Origin: Sideroxydans sp.
GTDB lineage: Bacteria > Pseudomonadota > Gammaproteobacteria > Burkholderiales > Gallionellaceae
Assembly (NCBI GenBank): GCA_028707175.1
Contig: JAQTUV010000004.1
Coordinates: 124,001 to 188,000 of the forward strand
Reading direction: 5' to 3'
Length of the DNA stretch: 64,000 nucleotides
Part shown: piece after piece, positions 31,242 through 49,856 of the stretch
Numbering within the stretch: position 1 is the stretch's first letter
How the letters are laid out: each line of letters starts with the position of its first letter
Program-made: the position numbers and the translations under genes
The notes under the pieces: model-generated
Seen by the model: the letters and a program-made list of their open reading frames with translations, nothing else
Told to the model about the DNA's origin: nothing
The model's database searches: none

Positions 31242-31269
31242 AAAAACGAGGGGTCCCCTCGTTTTTTTT
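31242..31269 (+). terminator. Terminator after folD
   Basis: AAAAACGAGGGG-TCCCCTCGTTTTTTTT, a compact stem with long A and T flanks; it can act in both directions but the next minus-strand gene ends 50 bp beyond it. Confidence 0.88.
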
Positions 31270-31318: not shown

Positions 31319-31585
31319 TTACTGACAGACGCGATTTCCAAATGAGTCCGTTCCACAACGTTTTGGAGGCACACCCTCATCTCTTTGTTGCTGGCGATTA
31401 CGCGCTGCCTCAGAATCGTTAACGCTAGATGCAGGAATATCATCACGCCACGTCGGCACCGTACTCATCACACCTCGTTGATCCAGACAAACCAGATTCC
31501 CAAAAGAATCCGTACCACAACGCACGATGGGCGTCGCAAAAGCAGCCCCCGAGAGTATCAGCGCGGCCATCGCAAAAAGCCTCAA
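31319..31585 (-). CDS. Small exported protein with duplicated CGTDSFGN motif
   Basis: 88-aa protein. Signal peptide MRLFAMAALILSGAAFA then TPIV. The mature protein of about 70 aa carries the same 11-residue motif at each end, CGTDSFGNLVC and CGTDSFGNRVC, with an Arg/Gln-rich middle. Each motif could form a Cys-Cys loop. No family recognised. Its ATG is 1 bp from the stop of the histidine kinase gene, so it is likely the last gene of that operon. Confidence 0.72.
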   Translation of the reverse strand: MRLFAMAALILSGAAFATPIVRCGTDSFGNLVCLDQRGVMSTVPTWRDDIPASSVNDSEAARNRQQQRDEGVPPKRCGTDSFGNRVCQ

Positions 31586-31586
31586 T

Positions 31587-32990
31587 TTATTTTCTTTCCA
31601 AAGGGATGTGAGGAGCTTCTTGATTGAAAGCGGGGAAAGATATCCAAAATCGACTACCTACATTAAGCTCACTTTTGAATCCGATTTCTCCGCCCATCGC
31701 TTCCACAATACGTTTAGTGATAGCCAATCCTAATCCTGTCCCCTCTGTAGCAGAGTTCTCCGCCCCCAGTCGTTGGAACGATTCAAAGAGAAGTGCTTGG
31801 TTCTCCAACGATATCCCTCGTCCCGTGTCAGAAACCGTCACAACCACATTTCCATCAAGCAGTTCGCATGTCACAGAAGCACTTCCTCCAGAGACATTGT
31901 ATTTAATGGCATTCGACAATAAATTAAAGAGAACTTGCCTTACCCGTAGTGGGTCTGCTTGAATCAAATAGCGGTGCGCACACTCGCGCTGAATTAAAAC
32001 TTGGTGCCGCATTGCCAAAGCTTGTGTCAACGAAAACACCTCTTCGATCAGCGTATCAATTTCGATAACACTCACATTAAAGTTGAATTCGCCGGCTTCA
32101 ATGCGCGCCAAATCAAGCGCTTCATTAGCCAAGAATAATAAATGCCGCCCACCTGCCAATATGTGACTGATTGGCGCTTTTTGAGTCGGCTTGAGCTCTC
32201 CCAACATTCCCTTATCAAGCATCTCTGAAAACCCAATGATGGCATTGAGGGGAGTGCGCAATTCATGACTCATGCTAGAGAGGAAGGAGGTTTTGACGCG
32301 ATTGGCAACATCTGCCTGATCTTTGGCTAACTGCAATTCAGAAGCATTCTGCTGAATCAGCATTTCTCGACGTTGAGAAGAAACTCGCAACCCCACATGC
32401 TCCTTCAACATCCGCTCAGTACGTATCCCACTTATGACTACAATTGGAAAAAGAAACGCATACAAAATAGCAATGGCAATCTGCAACTCGCCGCCCACCA
32501 CCAACAGATAAAAGATCACGGGTGCTGTCATTGGCAATAAGAATAAGAATGCGGCCAATCGATCGATCATCAGTACCGCGACCCCTCCAACCCCCATTCC
32601 TGCCAAGACGATCACAAGAAAAAATTGGTGACTAGAATAATCTACGGGGAACAGCAAAACGCCTCCAAATCCCCAGATAAGTCCATGTATCGCGGAAAAC
32701 AGACGAAGTCTGTTTAGCCAGAGTACATCCACCTCAACAGCTGAACTTAGTTTGCTGCGCCACCAAAATATCCACAATCCGATACTCGCGATGGAATAAC
32801 AGGTCAACAATATTAACCAAGACCAGCAAAGGGTATGTGGCATCACATCAGATTGAACAAAGGCCAGCACAGCGCCCGCCATCAGACTTCCAACCGAGGT
32901 ATGCGGAATATTACTGTAGAGCAATTTAGCCTGCTCTGTATGGAACGCACTATTCAAATTCAAGAGATGAATATCTGCTACTTTATTCAT
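31587..32990 (-). CDS. Membrane sensor histidine kinase
   Basis: 467-aa kinase. The N terminus has about six hydrophobic segments (roughly residues 35-190) with no periplasmic sensor domain, followed by a coiled linker. HisKA has His242 in [16 protein letters not shown]; the ATPase domain has [17 protein letters not shown] and [18 protein letters not shown]. No receiver domain of its own, so it must signal to a separate one. ATG 32990 overlaps the stop of the REC-Hpt gene by 8 bp, coupling the two. Confidence 0.93.
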
Positions 32991-34575
32991 GCAAGCCCCG
33001 ACCACTCGAAACACCAAGTAGTTGCTCGACAGTCAGTGCTTGACCAAATAAATCTCCTTGTACGCAATCACAACCCAGACGTCGAGCAATCGCTAACTCT
33101 TTATCTGTTGATACGCCATCCAGCTCCACCTTGGCATGACATTTATGAATATCACCCACGTATTTGCTCAAGGTGCCAAGCACTGCCTCGTCGGCACTCG
33201 CCATGTGCAACAAATTGGGATACATCTTAATTCCGCTAAATGTGTATCCTGACAACTGGCACAAACTAAGCGCACGCACTTCTGAACAACGTAAAGTCGC
33301 TTCTACACCTTTCTGGTGTAACTGCTTCAATCCTTCCAACCCCACCATTGCGCCCTCTGCTTCGAGACCTATACGCAATTTGTGTATTGGGAATTGCGTT
33401 GCTTGTGCCGTTGCCAGCAGAAATAATATGAGTCGATCTTGATTCAAAAACTTGAGATGTAATGGAAGGTCGAGTGAAATTTGAGCACCGCCTTCTATCA
33501 AACACACACCCGACAGTAATGCTTTAGTGATCCATATTTCAGCGAAATCCCATACTGCGGATTCATCCTTTAATCTTTCAATCACGCTGCTGATTGATAT
33601 GAGCTCATCTGACGCTCGGCAACGCAATGCAGCCTCCACACTTACCATCTGCATCGATCTCAAATCGATCTTGGGGTGGAAGCACACTTCGAATTCATTA
33701 CGATTCATCTTCTCCAAGAAGTCATCCATCGGCACTTGATTGGTGTGCGTTTGGACGGCTTGCGGAAGCGACTCTGTTGTTACGCCAGAAAGTTGAGTTT
33801 GGGTTGAGATTGATCGATCAATCTCAACTTTCAACTCTTCAAAAGCGCTGTTAAGTGAAGCCATTAAGCCAGCGATTTCTGCCACACTTTTATTTTTTGC
33901 AGCGTGCTCCATTGCAATCACACAATTGTAAAAACACATCGCCCCAACCGCCCGTGATGACGATTTAAGCTTATGCATGTGCAATGCCAAACTCGCTAAA
34001 TTACTTGAAGCCACATCCTGCTCACTCGCCGATAGATCTTTGCGCGCAGTATCTAAAAACAGCAGCAGAAATTGATGCAATTGTTGCGCATCAACTCGCC
34101 CCACAACTCGTTTCAGTATGGAGGTATCTAATACCGCAACCGAATCAACAGCCGCATGCTGATGTGAATCTTTGAAGGTTTCAGGCGTATTAACAGCCGG
34201 GCTAAACAACCAGCGATTGAGCATGCTTAACAAGCCATCCAAATCAATCGGCTTTGGTAAAGCATCATCCATTCCTGCTTCTTTGCATCGAATCATCACA
34301 GATGAATCAGTTGCCGCAGTAATCGCAATGATGGGAATCGGCCTCGCACAGTCTCGCTCAGCAGTCCGAATAGCTCGGGCCAATTGCAAACCGTCCATAT
34401 GCGGCATATTCACATCAGCCATCACTAGGTCATATTCCCTAGCTTTGTATTTGTCCAATGCCTGCAATCCGTCCGCTGCGATATCAACCTCGCACCCAAG
34501 GCTCTCCAACTGCATGCGGAGAACTGCCTGATTAGCCGGATTGTCTTCAGCCACCAAAATACAACGTTGCATCAA
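32983..34575 (-). CDS. REC-Hpt-degenerate EAL response regulator
   Basis: 530-aa protein with three domains. REC: residues 1-125, phospho-Asp54 ([12 protein letters not shown]), Lys108 in PKP. Hpt: about 150-250, phospho-His201 in [16 protein letters not shown]: about 285-525, clearly eroded: EAALRC for EALLRW, no DDFG acidic pair (LEAEGAMVG), and LDGVST for AEGVET, with [11 protein letters not shown] at the end. The EAL part is unlikely to hydrolyse c-di-GMP but may bind it or a partner. The REC plus Hpt pair makes it a phosphorelay hub between the kinase encoded downstream and the HTH-REC regulator upstream. Confidence 0.92.
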
Positions 34576-34655
34576 TGTATCCGAAAGTCAGTAAAGGAGG
34601 GGCTGCCGCAAAGATGTCTGAGTAACACCCCTATGCGCGGCAAGATTCAAAGAAG

Positions 34656-35252
34656 TCATGCTGCCAATTGGCGGCGATTCACCATTTGCTCGATGAGTAA
34701 GCGCAGCACTGCAAAGGGAATAGGTTTGGGATAAACCGGGATGCCGGAAGGAATGCCTCCTTGAGCTTCGATTTCAGTACTGGATAAGGCTGTCACCACG
34801 ATTATTCGCTGCGACAGTTGAGATGTCAGTCGATGAATCATCTTAAAACCATCCATTTCAGGCATCGCCAAGTCAGTGATAACCAAATCGGGAGCATGGC
34901 GGCCAATCAACATCAATCCTTCAAATCCATCGGCTGCCATCTGCAATTGCACGGGCAATCCCCACGTTGAAAATTGATGTTCGTATAAGGCTCGCTGTAC
35001 TTCGTCATCTTCCACCACCAACACCTTCAAAGTTGGCTTAGTTGAGCTGGAAACACTCACTTCTTTTTGTTTAGCATAGATTTTTTCTACGGCCTCACTA
35101 GGAATCCGTCGATGCCCACCAGCCGTCTTCCACGCTGGCAACACGCCCGTTTCAACCCAAGCCTGCACCGTAGAAAGTGCTACACCCAACCGCGCAGCTG
35201 CTTCCCTAGTCGAAATAAAACCACCCACTTCATCTTTCAAATTATTGCTCAC
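34656..35252 (-). CDS. HTH (MerR/excisionase-type)-REC response regulator
   Basis: Regulator with an unusual domain order. A helix-turn-helix of excisionase/MerR type (FISTREAAARLGVALSTVQAWVETGVLPAWKTAGGHRRIP) comes first, then a receiver with phospho-Asp in LVITDLAMPEMDG and the late Lys in YPKP. No second output domain. I set the start at GTG 35252 (AAGGAG 6 nt upstream; 198 aa); an upstream in-frame TTG at 35306 overlaps the CZB stop by 4 bp and is a real alternative. It is the probable transcription output of the local phosphorelay. Confidence 0.88.
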   Translation of the reverse strand: MSNNLKDEVGGFISTREAAARLGVALSTVQAWVETGVLPAWKTAGGHRRIPSEAVEKIYAKQKEVSVSSSTKPTLKVLVVEDDEVQRALYEHQFSTWGLPVQLQMAADGFEGLMLIGRHAPDLVITDLAMPEMDGFKMIHRLTSQLSQRIIVVTALSSTEIEAQGGIPSGIPVYPKPIPFAVLRLLIEQMVNRRQLAA

Positions 35253-35302
35253 ACTCAACTCCTTCAACGAGGACGCGATACTTTCACGACTACCCCATTT
35301 GG

Positions 35303-35737
35303 TCAATCATTCTGACCTTCAATTTGTGCGTGCAGCTTGGTAATACAGGTGATTGTCTTATTAGACTGCCTCGCAAAATCGTCCATCAATATCTTTTCTG
35401 CTGCTGTTGAATGCCCAGTTTGATGCTCTTCAACCACTTTTGCCGCATAGAAGTGAAATTTAGCATGCTCTTCCGTCAATTGTTTGAAAAGTTCAAACTC
35501 CCCAAACCTAGCCTTACCTGCGCCATGAATCCACTGACCTAAAGCACAACGGTTATCCACACAGATATTGTGAGGCTCCAACACCTCTTTGCCACGACCA
35601 GCCAGATAGTCTGACAAACGTCGTTTCCACGCTAGATGGACATCAATTGCTTGGTAAAAATCTAACTCCCGCTTAATCTCATCACGAGACTCACGTGTTA
35701 AACCGAACATCGTTTTGAGATCTGAAATAAAACTCAT
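35303..35737 (-). CDS. Stand-alone CZB (chemoreceptor zinc-binding) domain protein
   Basis: 144-aa protein, a CZB domain with short extensions and no chemoreceptor part. The zinc ligands match the family: His34 (IDVHLAWKRRL), Cys64 (NRCALGQWIHG), His91 and His95 (EEHAKFHFYAA). In chemoreceptors and diguanylate cyclases CZB senses zinc or oxidants through the Cys. The preferred start is ATG 35737 behind AAGGGAGA; 11 open codons precede it. Lies in the six-gene signalling operon and has a close paralogue at 49036. Confidence 0.88.
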   Translation of the reverse strand: MSFISDLKTMFGLTRESRDEIKRELDFYQAIDVHLAWKRRLSDYLAGRGKEVLEPHNICVDNRCALGQWIHGAGKARFGEFELFKQLTEEHAKFHFYAAKVVEEHQTGHSTAAEKILMDDFARQSNKTITCITKLHAQIEGQND

Positions 35738-35776
35738 GTTTATCTCCCTTCTCTTAGTTGCCCTACCCAATCGAAA

Positions 35777-35992
35777 TCAACGCAACAAATCTTTAGCTAA
35801 TTTAAATGCCAGCAAAGTCAAAAATGAGGATAAACAAATCATGAATATCAAATAGTTATCCATTACAAATACCCCCAATTCAGTTGCTATAAAACCGACT
35901 AGCAACCCAATAGCAACGATGAAATAGACGAGCCACATCGCTCGACGATACATCCTCACATTTTTGCTTTCCTGTTCGTTAGACATGTGCAT
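35777..35992 (-). CDS. Small two-helix membrane protein
   Basis: 71-aa protein with two hydrophobic helices (MWLVYFIVAIGLLVGFIA and YLIFMICLSSFLTLLAFK), a charged N-terminal tail and a basic C-terminal end. No family recognised. Placed 9 bp after the Cys-rich CZB-like gene and about 40 bp before the CZB gene on the same strand, so co-transcribed. It could anchor the soluble CZB proteins or the kinase. Confidence 0.72.
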   Translation of the reverse strand: MHMSNEQESKNVRMYRRAMWLVYFIVAIGLLVGFIATELGVFVMDNYLIFMICLSSFLTLLAFKLAKDLLR

Positions 35993-36001
35993 TACCGTAT
36001 T

Positions 36002-36412
36002 TCAAGACATCTCTTCTTCAAGCGCCCAACTAGAGACATGTAGTGCAGCGACACTTTCTTGAAAATGTGCGGATGCTGTCTTGAAAATGCCCCCGTCTTT
36101 CAAAGCGTCTTGCGCTGAATCAGCCCGATTTATGCCTACCAGCATTACCGCTTGGCTGGCCGCTTCTTGAAACTGCTCACAGCGCTTACACACCAAGTTA
36201 GCTTGCTTCACATCAAGCAATTGATTTCCGCCATCACTGTACAAAAACTGACTCAGCGAACAGCTCGGTTGACAGTCTGTCGGCACGATAGGTCGCACTT
36301 TTGACAATCCATTCACATAACATTCGATTACAGCCCGCTGATTCACATGCGCCTGTATCAGCTTGACGCCGTTGAAGGGCATGAACGAATTACCTTTATT
36401 GTGTGCATTCAT
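36002..36412 (-). CDS. Divergent Cys-rich CZB-like protein
   Basis: 136-aa protein whose layout follows CZB: an amphipathic first helix (VKLIQAHVNQRAVIECYVNGL), a CQPSCSLSQFLYSDGG segment like CVDNRCALGQWIHGAG of the neighbour, and a helix NLVCKRCEQFQEAASQAV where CZB has HAKFHFYAAKVV. The His pair is thus replaced by Cys-rich positions (Cys47, Cys51, Cys75, Cys78). It may bind zinc through thiols or work as a redox sensor. First gene of the signalling operon, with about 190 bp of upstream control region that includes a repeat of ATCATTTTC. Confidence 0.7.
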   Translation of the reverse strand: MNAHNKGNSFMPFNGVKLIQAHVNQRAVIECYVNGLSKVRPIVPTDCQPSCSLSQFLYSDGGNQLLDVKQANLVCKRCEQFQEAASQAVMLVGINRADSAQDALKDGGIFKTASAHFQESVAALHVSSWALEEEMS

Positions 36413-36603
36413 AACTCAACACCTATGCAAAACAGACGACTTAGCGAATTACGCTCAATACAGCTTATTCGACATTTTAATCATTTTCATCATTTTCATC
36501 CACAAGTAATGACGATTACGTTTTGACCGGAACACGGCCATCCCATCCAGCAGTGCGAAAGTTATATTTTTACTATTGAATACAGTTGATTAACGTGAGG
36601 GAC

Positions 36604-37533
36604 TCAATTAGATGTGCGTTTGCTATTCAAACTAATCACCAACACACCGGCCAAGACCAACAAAGAGCCCGCAATCTGCAACCAAGATACCGATTCACCC
36701 AAGAATAGGTAAGCCATATAGATGGTACTGACTGGCCCGATCGAGCCGATGAGTGATGTGTTTCCAGAACCTATTCGCTTGATGGCGAACGACAATAAAA
36801 ACACAGGTAGCACAGTTGAGAATATCGCCATCGAGATGGAGAGCTGATACACCTGCATTGGCAATTCAAGTGCGCTCATAGGGCGCGTCAGCAAGAACTG
36901 CAACACACATGCGGCACTCGCCACCAGCGATGCATAAGCCGTGAAGCGCATCGCGCCGATACGTGCGATGGCATGCCCCGCTCCGACAAGGTAGATCGAA
37001 TAGGACAAGGTACTGGCGAACACCAACGATGATCCGATGAGAACGGCACTCCCCTGATTCACGCCCACATCATGCAAGAACACCAATGCGATGCCCGCAT
37101 AGCTCAACACCATCGCCGCGATGACTACTTTTCCGATGGCACGTTTATACAACAACGCAGCGAGAATCACAGTCATGGTCGGATAGAGGAACAAGATCAG
37201 ACGTTCCAATCCCGCTGAGATGTACTGCAGCCCAAGGAAATCAAGATAGCTGGACAAATAGTATCCAACCAAGCCGAGCCCGATCACCAACCAGCGATCA
37301 TGCGAATCCAATGGAGCAGCATGTTGACGTTGCGCCCATAGCGCCACACCAAGAAAGAAGGGAGCAGAAAATACCATGCGTAACGCCAGCAAAGTGACGG
37401 CATCCACATGATCAACATAAGCGAGTTTGACCAAGATAGCCTTGGCCGAAAAGCCAACGGCTGCCAGCAAGGCGAAGACGACACCGATAAACACATCTCG
37501 TTGAGCAACGGTACTACGAGTTTGACTTGCCAT
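36604..37533 (-). CDS. EamA/DMT-family transporter
   Basis: 309-aa permease with ten helices in two EamA repeats. ALLAAVGFSAKAILVKLAY starts the first and GSSLVFASTLSYSIYLVGAG the second, and LFLGESVSWLQIAGSLLVLAGVLVI is the typical last-helix region. Exporter of amino acids or metabolites; substrate unknown. ATG 37533 is preferred over an upstream frame extension. It stands alone with about 250 bp upstream that contain no gene. Confidence 0.9.
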   Translation of the reverse strand: MASQTRSTVAQRDVFIGVVFALLAAVGFSAKAILVKLAYVDHVDAVTLLALRMVFSAPFFLGVALWAQRQHAAPLDSHDRWLVIGLGLVGYYLSSYLDFLGLQYISAGLERLILFLYPTMTVILAALLYKRAIGKVVIAAMVLSYAGIALVFLHDVGVNQGSAVLIGSSLVFASTLSYSIYLVGAGHAIARIGAMRFTAYASLVASAACVLQFLLTRPMSALELPMQVYQLSISMAIFSTVLPVFLLSFAIKRIGSGNTSLIGSIGPVSTIYMAYLFLGESVSWLQIAGSLLVLAGVLVISLNSKRTSN

Positions 37534-49035: not shown

Positions 49036-49482
49036 ATGTTCAGTAAAATATTTTCAGTGTTTGGCCTTGGCCAACAAGAGCCGGAAAAAGAAATCCTTCA
49101 AGTCATTAATATTTATGACGCCGTATTGGTTCATAGAGCTTGGAAAAGACGACTGATTGATTACCTTGAGGGCCGCTCCCAAGAGAATTTACAACCCAGC
49201 AAAATCTGCGTGGATAACCTGTGTGTGCTGGGTAAATGGATACATAGCGACGGCAAAGCTCAGTTCGAAGATCAAGCCGTGTTTAAAAAACTGATGGATG
49301 AGCACGCAAAATTTCATATTCACGCAGCCAAGGTCGTCGAAGCACATCAGGAGGGAAATGATGAACTTGCGCAAAGCATCTTGACCGGAAACTTTGACGA
49401 ACAATCTAGAAAAACAGTGGTTTGTTTGGTCAAACTGCACGCCATGGTCGAAGAGGAAGAACAGCGGCTTAACCCTCAATAA
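49036..49482 (+). CDS. Second stand-alone CZB domain protein
   Basis: 148-aa paralogue of the CZB protein at 35303-35737, with the same ligands: His33 (AVLVHRAWKRRL), Cys63 (NLCVLGKWIHS), His90 and His94 (DEHAKFHIHAAKVV), and a similar C terminus ending in a Glu-rich helix. Shine-Dalgarno AAGGGCAGGA precedes the ATG. No kinase or receptor genes adjoin it, so it may feed the signalling operon at 31-36 kb or work with a chemoreceptor elsewhere. Confidence 0.87.
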   Translation: MFSKIFSVFGLGQQEPEKEILQVINIYDAVLVHRAWKRRLIDYLEGRSQENLQPSKICVDNLCVLGKWIHSDGKAQFEDQAVFKKLMDEHAKFHIHAAKVVEAHQEGNDELAQSILTGNFDEQSRKTVVCLVKLHAMVEEEEQRLNPQ

Positions 49483-49856
49483 AAATGAACGGCACCTTCG
49501 TGGTGCATCTTATCAATGGCATCACGTAGTGCCGTGTATTGATTCGCCACAACCATACTCACGCGTTAATTTTTAAATAAAACAATCCCTTCCTCGGCGT
49601 CATCCGCAAAATCAGTCGCCATCATCGTCGCGCAATCACGCCGAGATGATCGAGAAATTGGAGGGCAAAACGTGGGCTCTATGTTGAAGCTACAGAATAA
49701 GCACTCATTTGGTGCCAATCTGACTTGCTCGAACGGATTTTTGATCCAAGATAACGCAAATGTGATGCTGCCTCTAAGGACCGGCAGCATCAGAATGGTT
49801 TCTTGAGAGTGAAATTAAGCGCACCATTTTTTGCAAAACACGTTCAGTCACGAAAC
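49483..49856. other. Intergenic region with GATGCTGCC hairpin
   Basis: About 370 bp without a supported gene. At 49764-49791 GATGCTGCC and GGCAGCATC form a 9-bp stem with a 10-nt loop, preceded by AAATGT as at 5756. The stretch 49580-49690 has open frames on both strands but no start signals and may be gene debris. Confidence 0.45.

Follow-up and report, generated by a model that had tools for sequence, protein, structure and literature searches.

The DNA analysed here, referred to as the window, is a stretch of 64,000 nucleotides from Sideroxydans sp. (contig JAQTUV010000004.1, positions 124,001 to 188,000 of the forward strand). In its listing of open reading frames (ORFs), six genes, all on the minus strand, occupy positions 31587-36412, and the six-gene block proposed in the initial annotation was found complete. 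They encode a Cys-rich protein, a small hydrophobic protein, a CZB protein, a helix-turn-helix (HTH) protein with a receiver domain (HTH-REC), a REC-Hpt-EAL protein (the hub) and a membrane histidine kinase (HK), and are called the cassette below (Table 1).

Table 1. Coordinates in the window of the cassette genes and associated features (TM, transmembrane).
Feature	Position	Strand	Description
Gene 1 (CYS)	36002..36412	-	136 amino acids (aa); divergent CZB protein by profile comparison; site H22/C47/C51/C78, with Q82 replacing the last His
Gene 2 (TM2)	35777..35992	-	71 aa; hydrophobic, interpreted as having two membrane helices
Gene 3 (CZB)	35303..35737	-	144-aa canonical CZB protein; ligands H34, C64, H91, H95
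Gene 4 (HTH-REC)	34656..35252	-	198 aa; BldC/MerR-type winged HTH and receiver (D127); GTG start with ribosome-binding site
Gene 5 (hub)	32983..34572	-	529 aa; REC (D53), Hpt (H200), EAL domain without catalytic motifs
Gene 6 (HK)	31587..32990	-	467 aa; HisKA (H242) and HATPase_c behind a membrane sensor domain with six long predicted helices; no REC
Three 9-bp direct repeats AAAATGATG AAAATGATT AAAATGTCG	36470..36496	-	candidate HTH-REC operator upstream of gene 1
Right junction of inserted block, AATTGAG	31581..31587	-	copy at left junction 36603-36609; weak, chance possible

Pfam families scoring over the cut-off were HisKA and HATPase_c in the kinase, Response_reg, Hpt and EAL in the hub, HTH_17 and Response_reg in HTH-REC, and CZB in gene 3 (52.8 bits against a cut-off of 29.4). 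No family, CZB included, did so in gene 1, and none in gene 2 or in the small CGTDSFGN ORF beside the kinase gene. The phospho-residues are all present: H242 of the kinase together with N, G1 and G2 boxes, D53 and H200 of the hub, and D127 of HTH-REC with the conserved Lys. The division of domains described initially, with a kinase lacking REC, a hub carrying REC and Hpt and an HTH protein ending in REC, is borne out by both Pfam and residues. The kinase His242 keeps its number, and the hub residues formerly given as Asp54 and His201 become D53 and H200 when counted from the ATG at 34572. The hub EAL domain is degenerate, as had been noted, both EITE and DDFG being gone.

The spacing between the genes had been described as overlaps of 4-8 bp or gaps of at most about 80 bp. 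The hub and kinase genes do overlap by 8 bp (32983-32990), but with the preferred starts this is the only overlap, and the largest gap is 83 bp (34573-34655). Judged from the sequence, the most likely start of HTH-REC is the GTG at 35252, which has AAGGAG upstream and leaves a gap of 50 bp to gene 3; the 4-bp overlap needs an alternative TTG start at 35306, where no AAGGAG-like site was seen. Promoter-like sites (5 against 9.3 expected) and terminator-like sites (7 against 5.1 expected) gave nothing clearly above chance.

The CGTDSFGN ORF (31319-31570, minus strand), whose start adjoins the kinase stop codon, encodes a small protein that is probably exported and carries the motif CGTDSFGN.VC twice, and had been put forward as a possible seventh gene. 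Counting the own genome, it has relatives in 22 of 34 genomes in the genus, frequently located between eamA and folD. In 12 of the 21 relatives eamA immediately precedes it; eamA is 0.4-0.6 kb away in two (L303, L305) and absent from the fetched stretch in six, the sister genome among them, and a contig end cuts one. Since eamA and this ORF are so often neighbours, the six genes look like an insertion between them and the ORF is excluded as a member; it may be co-transcribed with the cassette. The inserted block is low in GC, 46.0% versus 51.5% for the window (0.8% of equal-length window stretches are as low or lower), and GC at third codon positions is 0.40-0.48 in the five cassette genes measured versus 0.59-0.64 in four neighbours. 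A transposon origin was considered and set aside: the 7-bp direct repeat AATTGAG at both junctions could be chance, since 372 of 2000 pairs of 61-bp stretches drawn at random share some 7-mer, and no recombinase is encoded within the six genes, beyond which none was sought. Behind the CGTDSFGN ORF, a palindrome followed by T (AAAACGAGGGGACCCCTCGTTTTT, 31242-31269, minus strand) appears terminator-like by eye and was not picked up by the terminator scan.

The cassette genes recur in the same order in the sister genome G001 (locus L039); 18 kb of that locus were searched for five genes flanking the window cassette and contained none of them. At that locus genes 2 and 3 are one ORF, the gene-2 part of which shows 46% identity over 46 residues (E 3e-7, a single comparison), the hub has no EAL domain and the kinase carries an extra C-terminal REC. 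Because the set recurs at an unrelated site, its grouping appears to be more than chance, and by sequence the six genes look like a single signalling cassette that has spread horizontally and travels as a block. A distribution across Nitrosomonadales, where the initial annotation suggested a search, is not supported. HTH-REC was matched at E<1e-20 in 16 of 150 family genomes (own included). Identity was at least 60% in just two of the other genomes, G001 and G077 (locus L040), and of these two, CZB genes were seen at the G001 locus only. No HTH-REC or REC-Hpt ORF was present in the displayed parts of 20 loci (19 genomes), drawn from 37 genomes of the order matching a two-row gene-1 profile.

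The relay proteins were compared with ORFs of at least 100 aa in 378 fetched loci. The kinase core, the REC-Hpt part of the hub and HTH-REC had their three best non-self relatives in common, L039, L040 and L152 (contig CAILNT010000103.1 of a metagenome-assembled genome), with identities of 59/52/52%, 49/47/48% and 64/64/65%, respectively. The next-best relatives fell to 46-47% for the kinase core and 32% for REC-Hpt, and other HTH-RECs in the 150 family genomes to at most 49%. Of 80 loci retained from the matches listed in a wider contig scan, L152 alone (65%) exceeded 44% HTH-REC identity. At L040 and L152 the hub exceeds 1400 aa and has a complete EAL domain, and the kinases have other input parts and a REC. 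A transfer from the kinase through REC and Hpt to HTH-REC, as proposed earlier, agrees with the residues found and with the joint inheritance of the trio in four loci.

As judged by phmmer, HTH-REC carries a BldC-like winged HTH, with matches to BldC (6ama and 6amk, E 0.006 and 0.007) and to RacA (5i41, E 0.0006). According to the accessible text of PMC5859096, BldC recognises direct repeats of 9 bp, on which it binds head to tail, and the repeats before gene 1 therefore fit the HTH type. A two-repeat pattern with at most one mismatch, written after the window and G001 had been inspected, gave two matches in the window against 0.05 expected. The repeat stretch is conserved upstream of G001 gene 1, where 0/500 single-base shuffles score as well. 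In G077, a stretch of lower similarity separates HTH-REC from a divergently oriented gene (3/500 shuffles versus the window stretch, 0/500 versus that of G001). A similar array stands 41-50 bp before an HTH-REC gene of G086 (L052), and in 343,830 bases of 22 HTH-REC loci the G001 and G086 sites were the only matches at up to three mismatches. Moderate support came from testing 22 upstream regions for periodicity (L049, the 23rd, was omitted for its shortness). Period 9 beat all 100 shuffles in four of them (G000, which is the own genome, G001, L047 and L052), while period 7 did so in one, 10 in two, 12 in one, and 8 and 11 in none.

A regulon search of the own genome returned one perfect match, before gene 1, and reversed-pattern controls returned 0. 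Two other sites were C8:422733, with three mismatches at the start of an OmpA-type gene, and C11:90603, inside an ORF, with three mismatches by the first pattern and one by the second. The same search in G001 gave a single site, taken as that of the cassette, and no second one. By analogy with BldC, the repeats before gene 1 suggest autoregulation of the operon, which we regard as a lead. One copy with two mismatches (C12:12264-12286; L348 1501-1523) lies between a gene for an outer membrane efflux protein and a LapG-LapD-type pair, whose genes encode Peptidase_C93 (LapG-like) and LapD_MoxY_N domains. It is a possible, weak candidate for an HTH-REC target in biofilm control.

Gene 1 had been called CZB-like, and the profile comparison bears this out. 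A profile of 14 gene-1 members, window copy included, matched 13 CZB-only proteins with a hhalign E of 9e-20, and 10 of the 14 match Pfam CZB at E<=0.1, the window copy not being among them. Profiles are needed for the link, as blastp of gene 1 versus gene 3 gave no match. The predicted model (predicted local distance difference test, pLDDT, 85) has as its top Foldseek match in the PDB the CZB domain of DgcZ (3t9o, prob 1.00, TM-score 0.61/0.68). By these comparisons gene 1 is a CZB homologue. The four canonical ligands are intact in 13/13 aligned CZB-only proteins; gene 1 does not possess this 3His/1Cys set. In the joint alignment, the first His (H22) is found in 14/14 gene-1 members and the CZB Cys (C51) in 13/14. 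A second Cys (C47), four residues before the CZB Cys, is present in 14/14, and the third ligand position holds Cys (C78) instead of His in 14/14. The fourth position is H in 8, Q in 2 (Q82 in the window), R in 2, M in 1 and N in 1. L144, one of 15 members then known, was omitted from the set for its extended N terminus and has the same ligand pattern in a 16-row alignment.

A search of 158 family genomes yielded 15 gene-1 members in the genus (E<1e-49) and three in another genus (E 1e-26 to 1e-31); two more at about 1e-16 fit ordinary CZB better. From the alignment, gene 1 belongs to a CZB subfamily in which the third zinc His is replaced by Cys, and its metal site is the most unusual single element of the cassette. 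The three other-genus members (L391, L392, L393) adjoin permease-type genes (FtsX/MacB-like by eye), not sensors.

CZB matches number 13 in the own genome, and five of these, counting gene 3, are stand-alone CZB ORFs. One of the five (49037-49483, plus strand; 148 aa) lies in the window about 13 kb from the cassette; it shares 52-53% identity with gene 3, and its neighbours include no recognised signalling gene. Others stand behind genes annotated by eye, a small-GTPase/roadblock-type pair at L060 7340-8973 and a large REC-bearing chemotaxis-type gene at L059 8795-9271; L060 also holds a kinase with the same membrane domain as the cassette kinase. Tandem proteins with two CZB copies per ORF were seen at L099 8170-8988 (272 aa) and L100 8469-9347 (292 aa).

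The membrane domain of the kinase (6-TM domain) is modelled as a short first helix followed by six long ones (pLDDT 90). No convincing Pfam match was obtained for it in nine members (best E 0.007), and a fold search likewise gave nothing convincing (membrane cyclase ImcA 8wcn, E 0.41, TM-score 0.48). Thirty 6-TM loci with 1.5 kb flanks had HK outputs in 21, GGDEF/EAL in 5 and HD-GYP in 4. The domain resembles that of an HD-GYP protein, which aligns with it at 15-20% identity to the window copy and at 28-33% for two other kinases; a single-sequence match to the HD-GYP protein of G016 has an E of 2e-8. Eight of the 15 gene-1 members in the genus lie directly beside such a 6-TM HD-GYP protein, two are in the cassette and five have neither. 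This gives a suggestive link between gene 1 and the 6-TM domain, though not a strict one.

These results may be read as a horizontally spread cassette in which a zinc- or redox-tuned membrane kinase feeds a phosphorelay ending on HTH-REC. The CZB proteins would sense the zinc or redox state of the membrane-near cytoplasm. Gene 2 would tether gene 3, with its 3His/1Cys site, to the membrane, and gene 3 and the Cys-rich gene 1 would contact the 6-TM kinase in trans, setting autophosphorylation at H242. Phosphate would then pass from kinase H242 to hub D53, on to hub H200 and finally to D127 of HTH-REC, which, like BldC, would bind 9-bp direct repeats in a head-to-tail arrangement, including the three before gene 1. 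The operon would be autoregulated through these repeats. The hub EAL, presumably without hydrolysis of cyclic di-GMP (c-di-GMP), would be at most a scaffold or an allosteric part. An input of zinc or oxidants through the CZB proteins, as first suggested, is plausible on the basis of operon membership, the fusion of the 2-TM and CZB proteins in G001 and the pairing of gene 1 with the membrane domain of HD-GYP proteins. We give this proposal an even chance of being right in outline.

Several observations weigh against it. Every biochemical step rests on sequence inference, and G001 is the only other genome in which the whole set was found. The other stand-alone CZBs of the own genome stand in contexts without a relay of this kind, and the gene-1 fold match, with an E of only 0.09, is weak taken alone. 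Five of the 13 non-cassette gene-1 members in the genus have no 6-TM neighbour; no 6-TM protein was found near the three other-genus members in 3.4-kb loci, and 20 of the 28 6-TM HD-GYP loci in the genus (as against 8/28) are without a gene-1 homologue. No such 9-bp repeat is present in L152, and at up to two mismatches the pattern occurs in 103/150 family genomes, too common to inform. Finally, no CZB match was found in the fetched stretches of L040 (18 kb) and L152 (16.6 kb). As these loci have the trio without a CZB gene, the relay seems to be independent of the CZB side, which suggests a relay trio of greater age that the CZB front end joined later.

The last result also favours an alternative, that the trio is a self-contained relay sensing another signal via the 6-TM domain and that the genes on the CZB side merely share its promoter. 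The 6-TM domain is indeed widespread (136/399 genomes of the order), and among the 30 loci with 1.5 kb flanks a gene-1 homologue was beside one and CZB beside none. However, both genomes with the CZB side have it aligned with the relay genes, at unrelated sites, and gene-1 homologues pair with a like membrane domain in eight other genomes. We regard this alternative as possible, though rather unlikely.

A more specific version of the CZB-tuned phosphorelay may be considered. Gene 1 would define a thiolate-rich CZB subfamily (His and three Cys in place of three His and one Cys) and serve in trans as a redox or zinc plug-in for one type of 6-TM sensor, whether kinase or HD-GYP phosphodiesterase. 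Within the cassette it would stand next to the conventional, membrane-tethered CZB, and the two metal sites, differing in redox sensitivity, would be compared before the signal reaches the phosphorelay and its BldC-type response regulator. This version seems doubtful to us.

It could also be argued that gene 1 is a decaying CZB paralogue with functionless extra cysteines, as neither His of the HxxxH motif survives in the window copy, which also lacks a Pfam match. Yet H22, C47 and C78 (14/14) and C51 (13/14) are kept despite only 26-38% identity of the members to the window copy, and by eye the three other-genus members keep the ligand pattern as well. Decay would not retain a new cysteine across the members and is therefore improbable. 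The least probable explanation makes the cassette chiefly a switch from c-di-GMP to transcription, with the degenerate EAL as receptor. In its favour, the hubs of L040 and L152 retain both catalytic motifs, gene-1 homologues sit with HD-GYP proteins and one two-mismatch repeat copy precedes lapG-lapD-type genes; against it, the window hub has lost EITE and DDFG and that of G001 lacks the EAL domain altogether.

The proposed CZB-tuned phosphorelay may be set beside known systems. Gene 3 resembles the CZB proteins DgcZ, TlpD and McpA (PF13682) in its 3His/1Cys site and its Pfam score, and its Cys followed by Ala is one pattern that the accessible text of PMC8262984 gives for the CZB-only subgroup. 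That text calls the 3His/1Cys motif ubiquitous and lists chemoreceptors, diguanylate cyclases, EAL and CheW proteins as CZB outputs; CZB-only proteins, some perhaps incomplete, make up 27.1% of CZB sequences and are given no named partner there (mBio; PMC8262984). The cassette differs in placing two CZB-family proteins in a phosphorelay operon, which offers them a concrete candidate partner, and in the altered ligand set of gene 1. In a recent preprint, as far as its accessible text goes, the 3His/1Cys site is claimed to read zinc availability and not to be oxidised directly (PMC13370339); gene 1, as a natural variant of the CZB metal site, would permit a direct test of this claim. No CZB-linked phosphorelay was described in the titles and abstract openings of the literature searched, mostly outside subscription papers. 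Should gene 1 act as a thiolate-rich plug-in, the cassette would be the first CZB-gated two-component system within that literature.

The relay itself resembles the tripartite or unorthodox kinases BarA, ArcB, TorS and EvgS in its His-Asp-His-Asp order and in NCBIfam matches of the kinase core and REC-Hpt, with scores far under the equivalog cut-offs (e.g. 212 versus 676.5 bits and 96.7 versus 890). It differs from them in being split over two proteins and in its BldC-type HTH-REC output. RpfC/RpfG-type systems likewise combine a multi-TM kinase, an Hpt and a c-di-GMP-type domain within one operon. The cassette, in contrast, has no HD-GYP output, an EAL without catalytic motifs and a predicted DNA-binding output. 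HTH-REC has a winged HTH similar to that of the BldC family (6ama, 6amk), with a GGHRR wing, and 9-bp direct repeats upstream as candidate binding sites, and differs in its C-terminal receiver. Taken together, the parts are all of known types and the combination is new as a variant, in which zinc or redox changes would plausibly find a new route to gene control.

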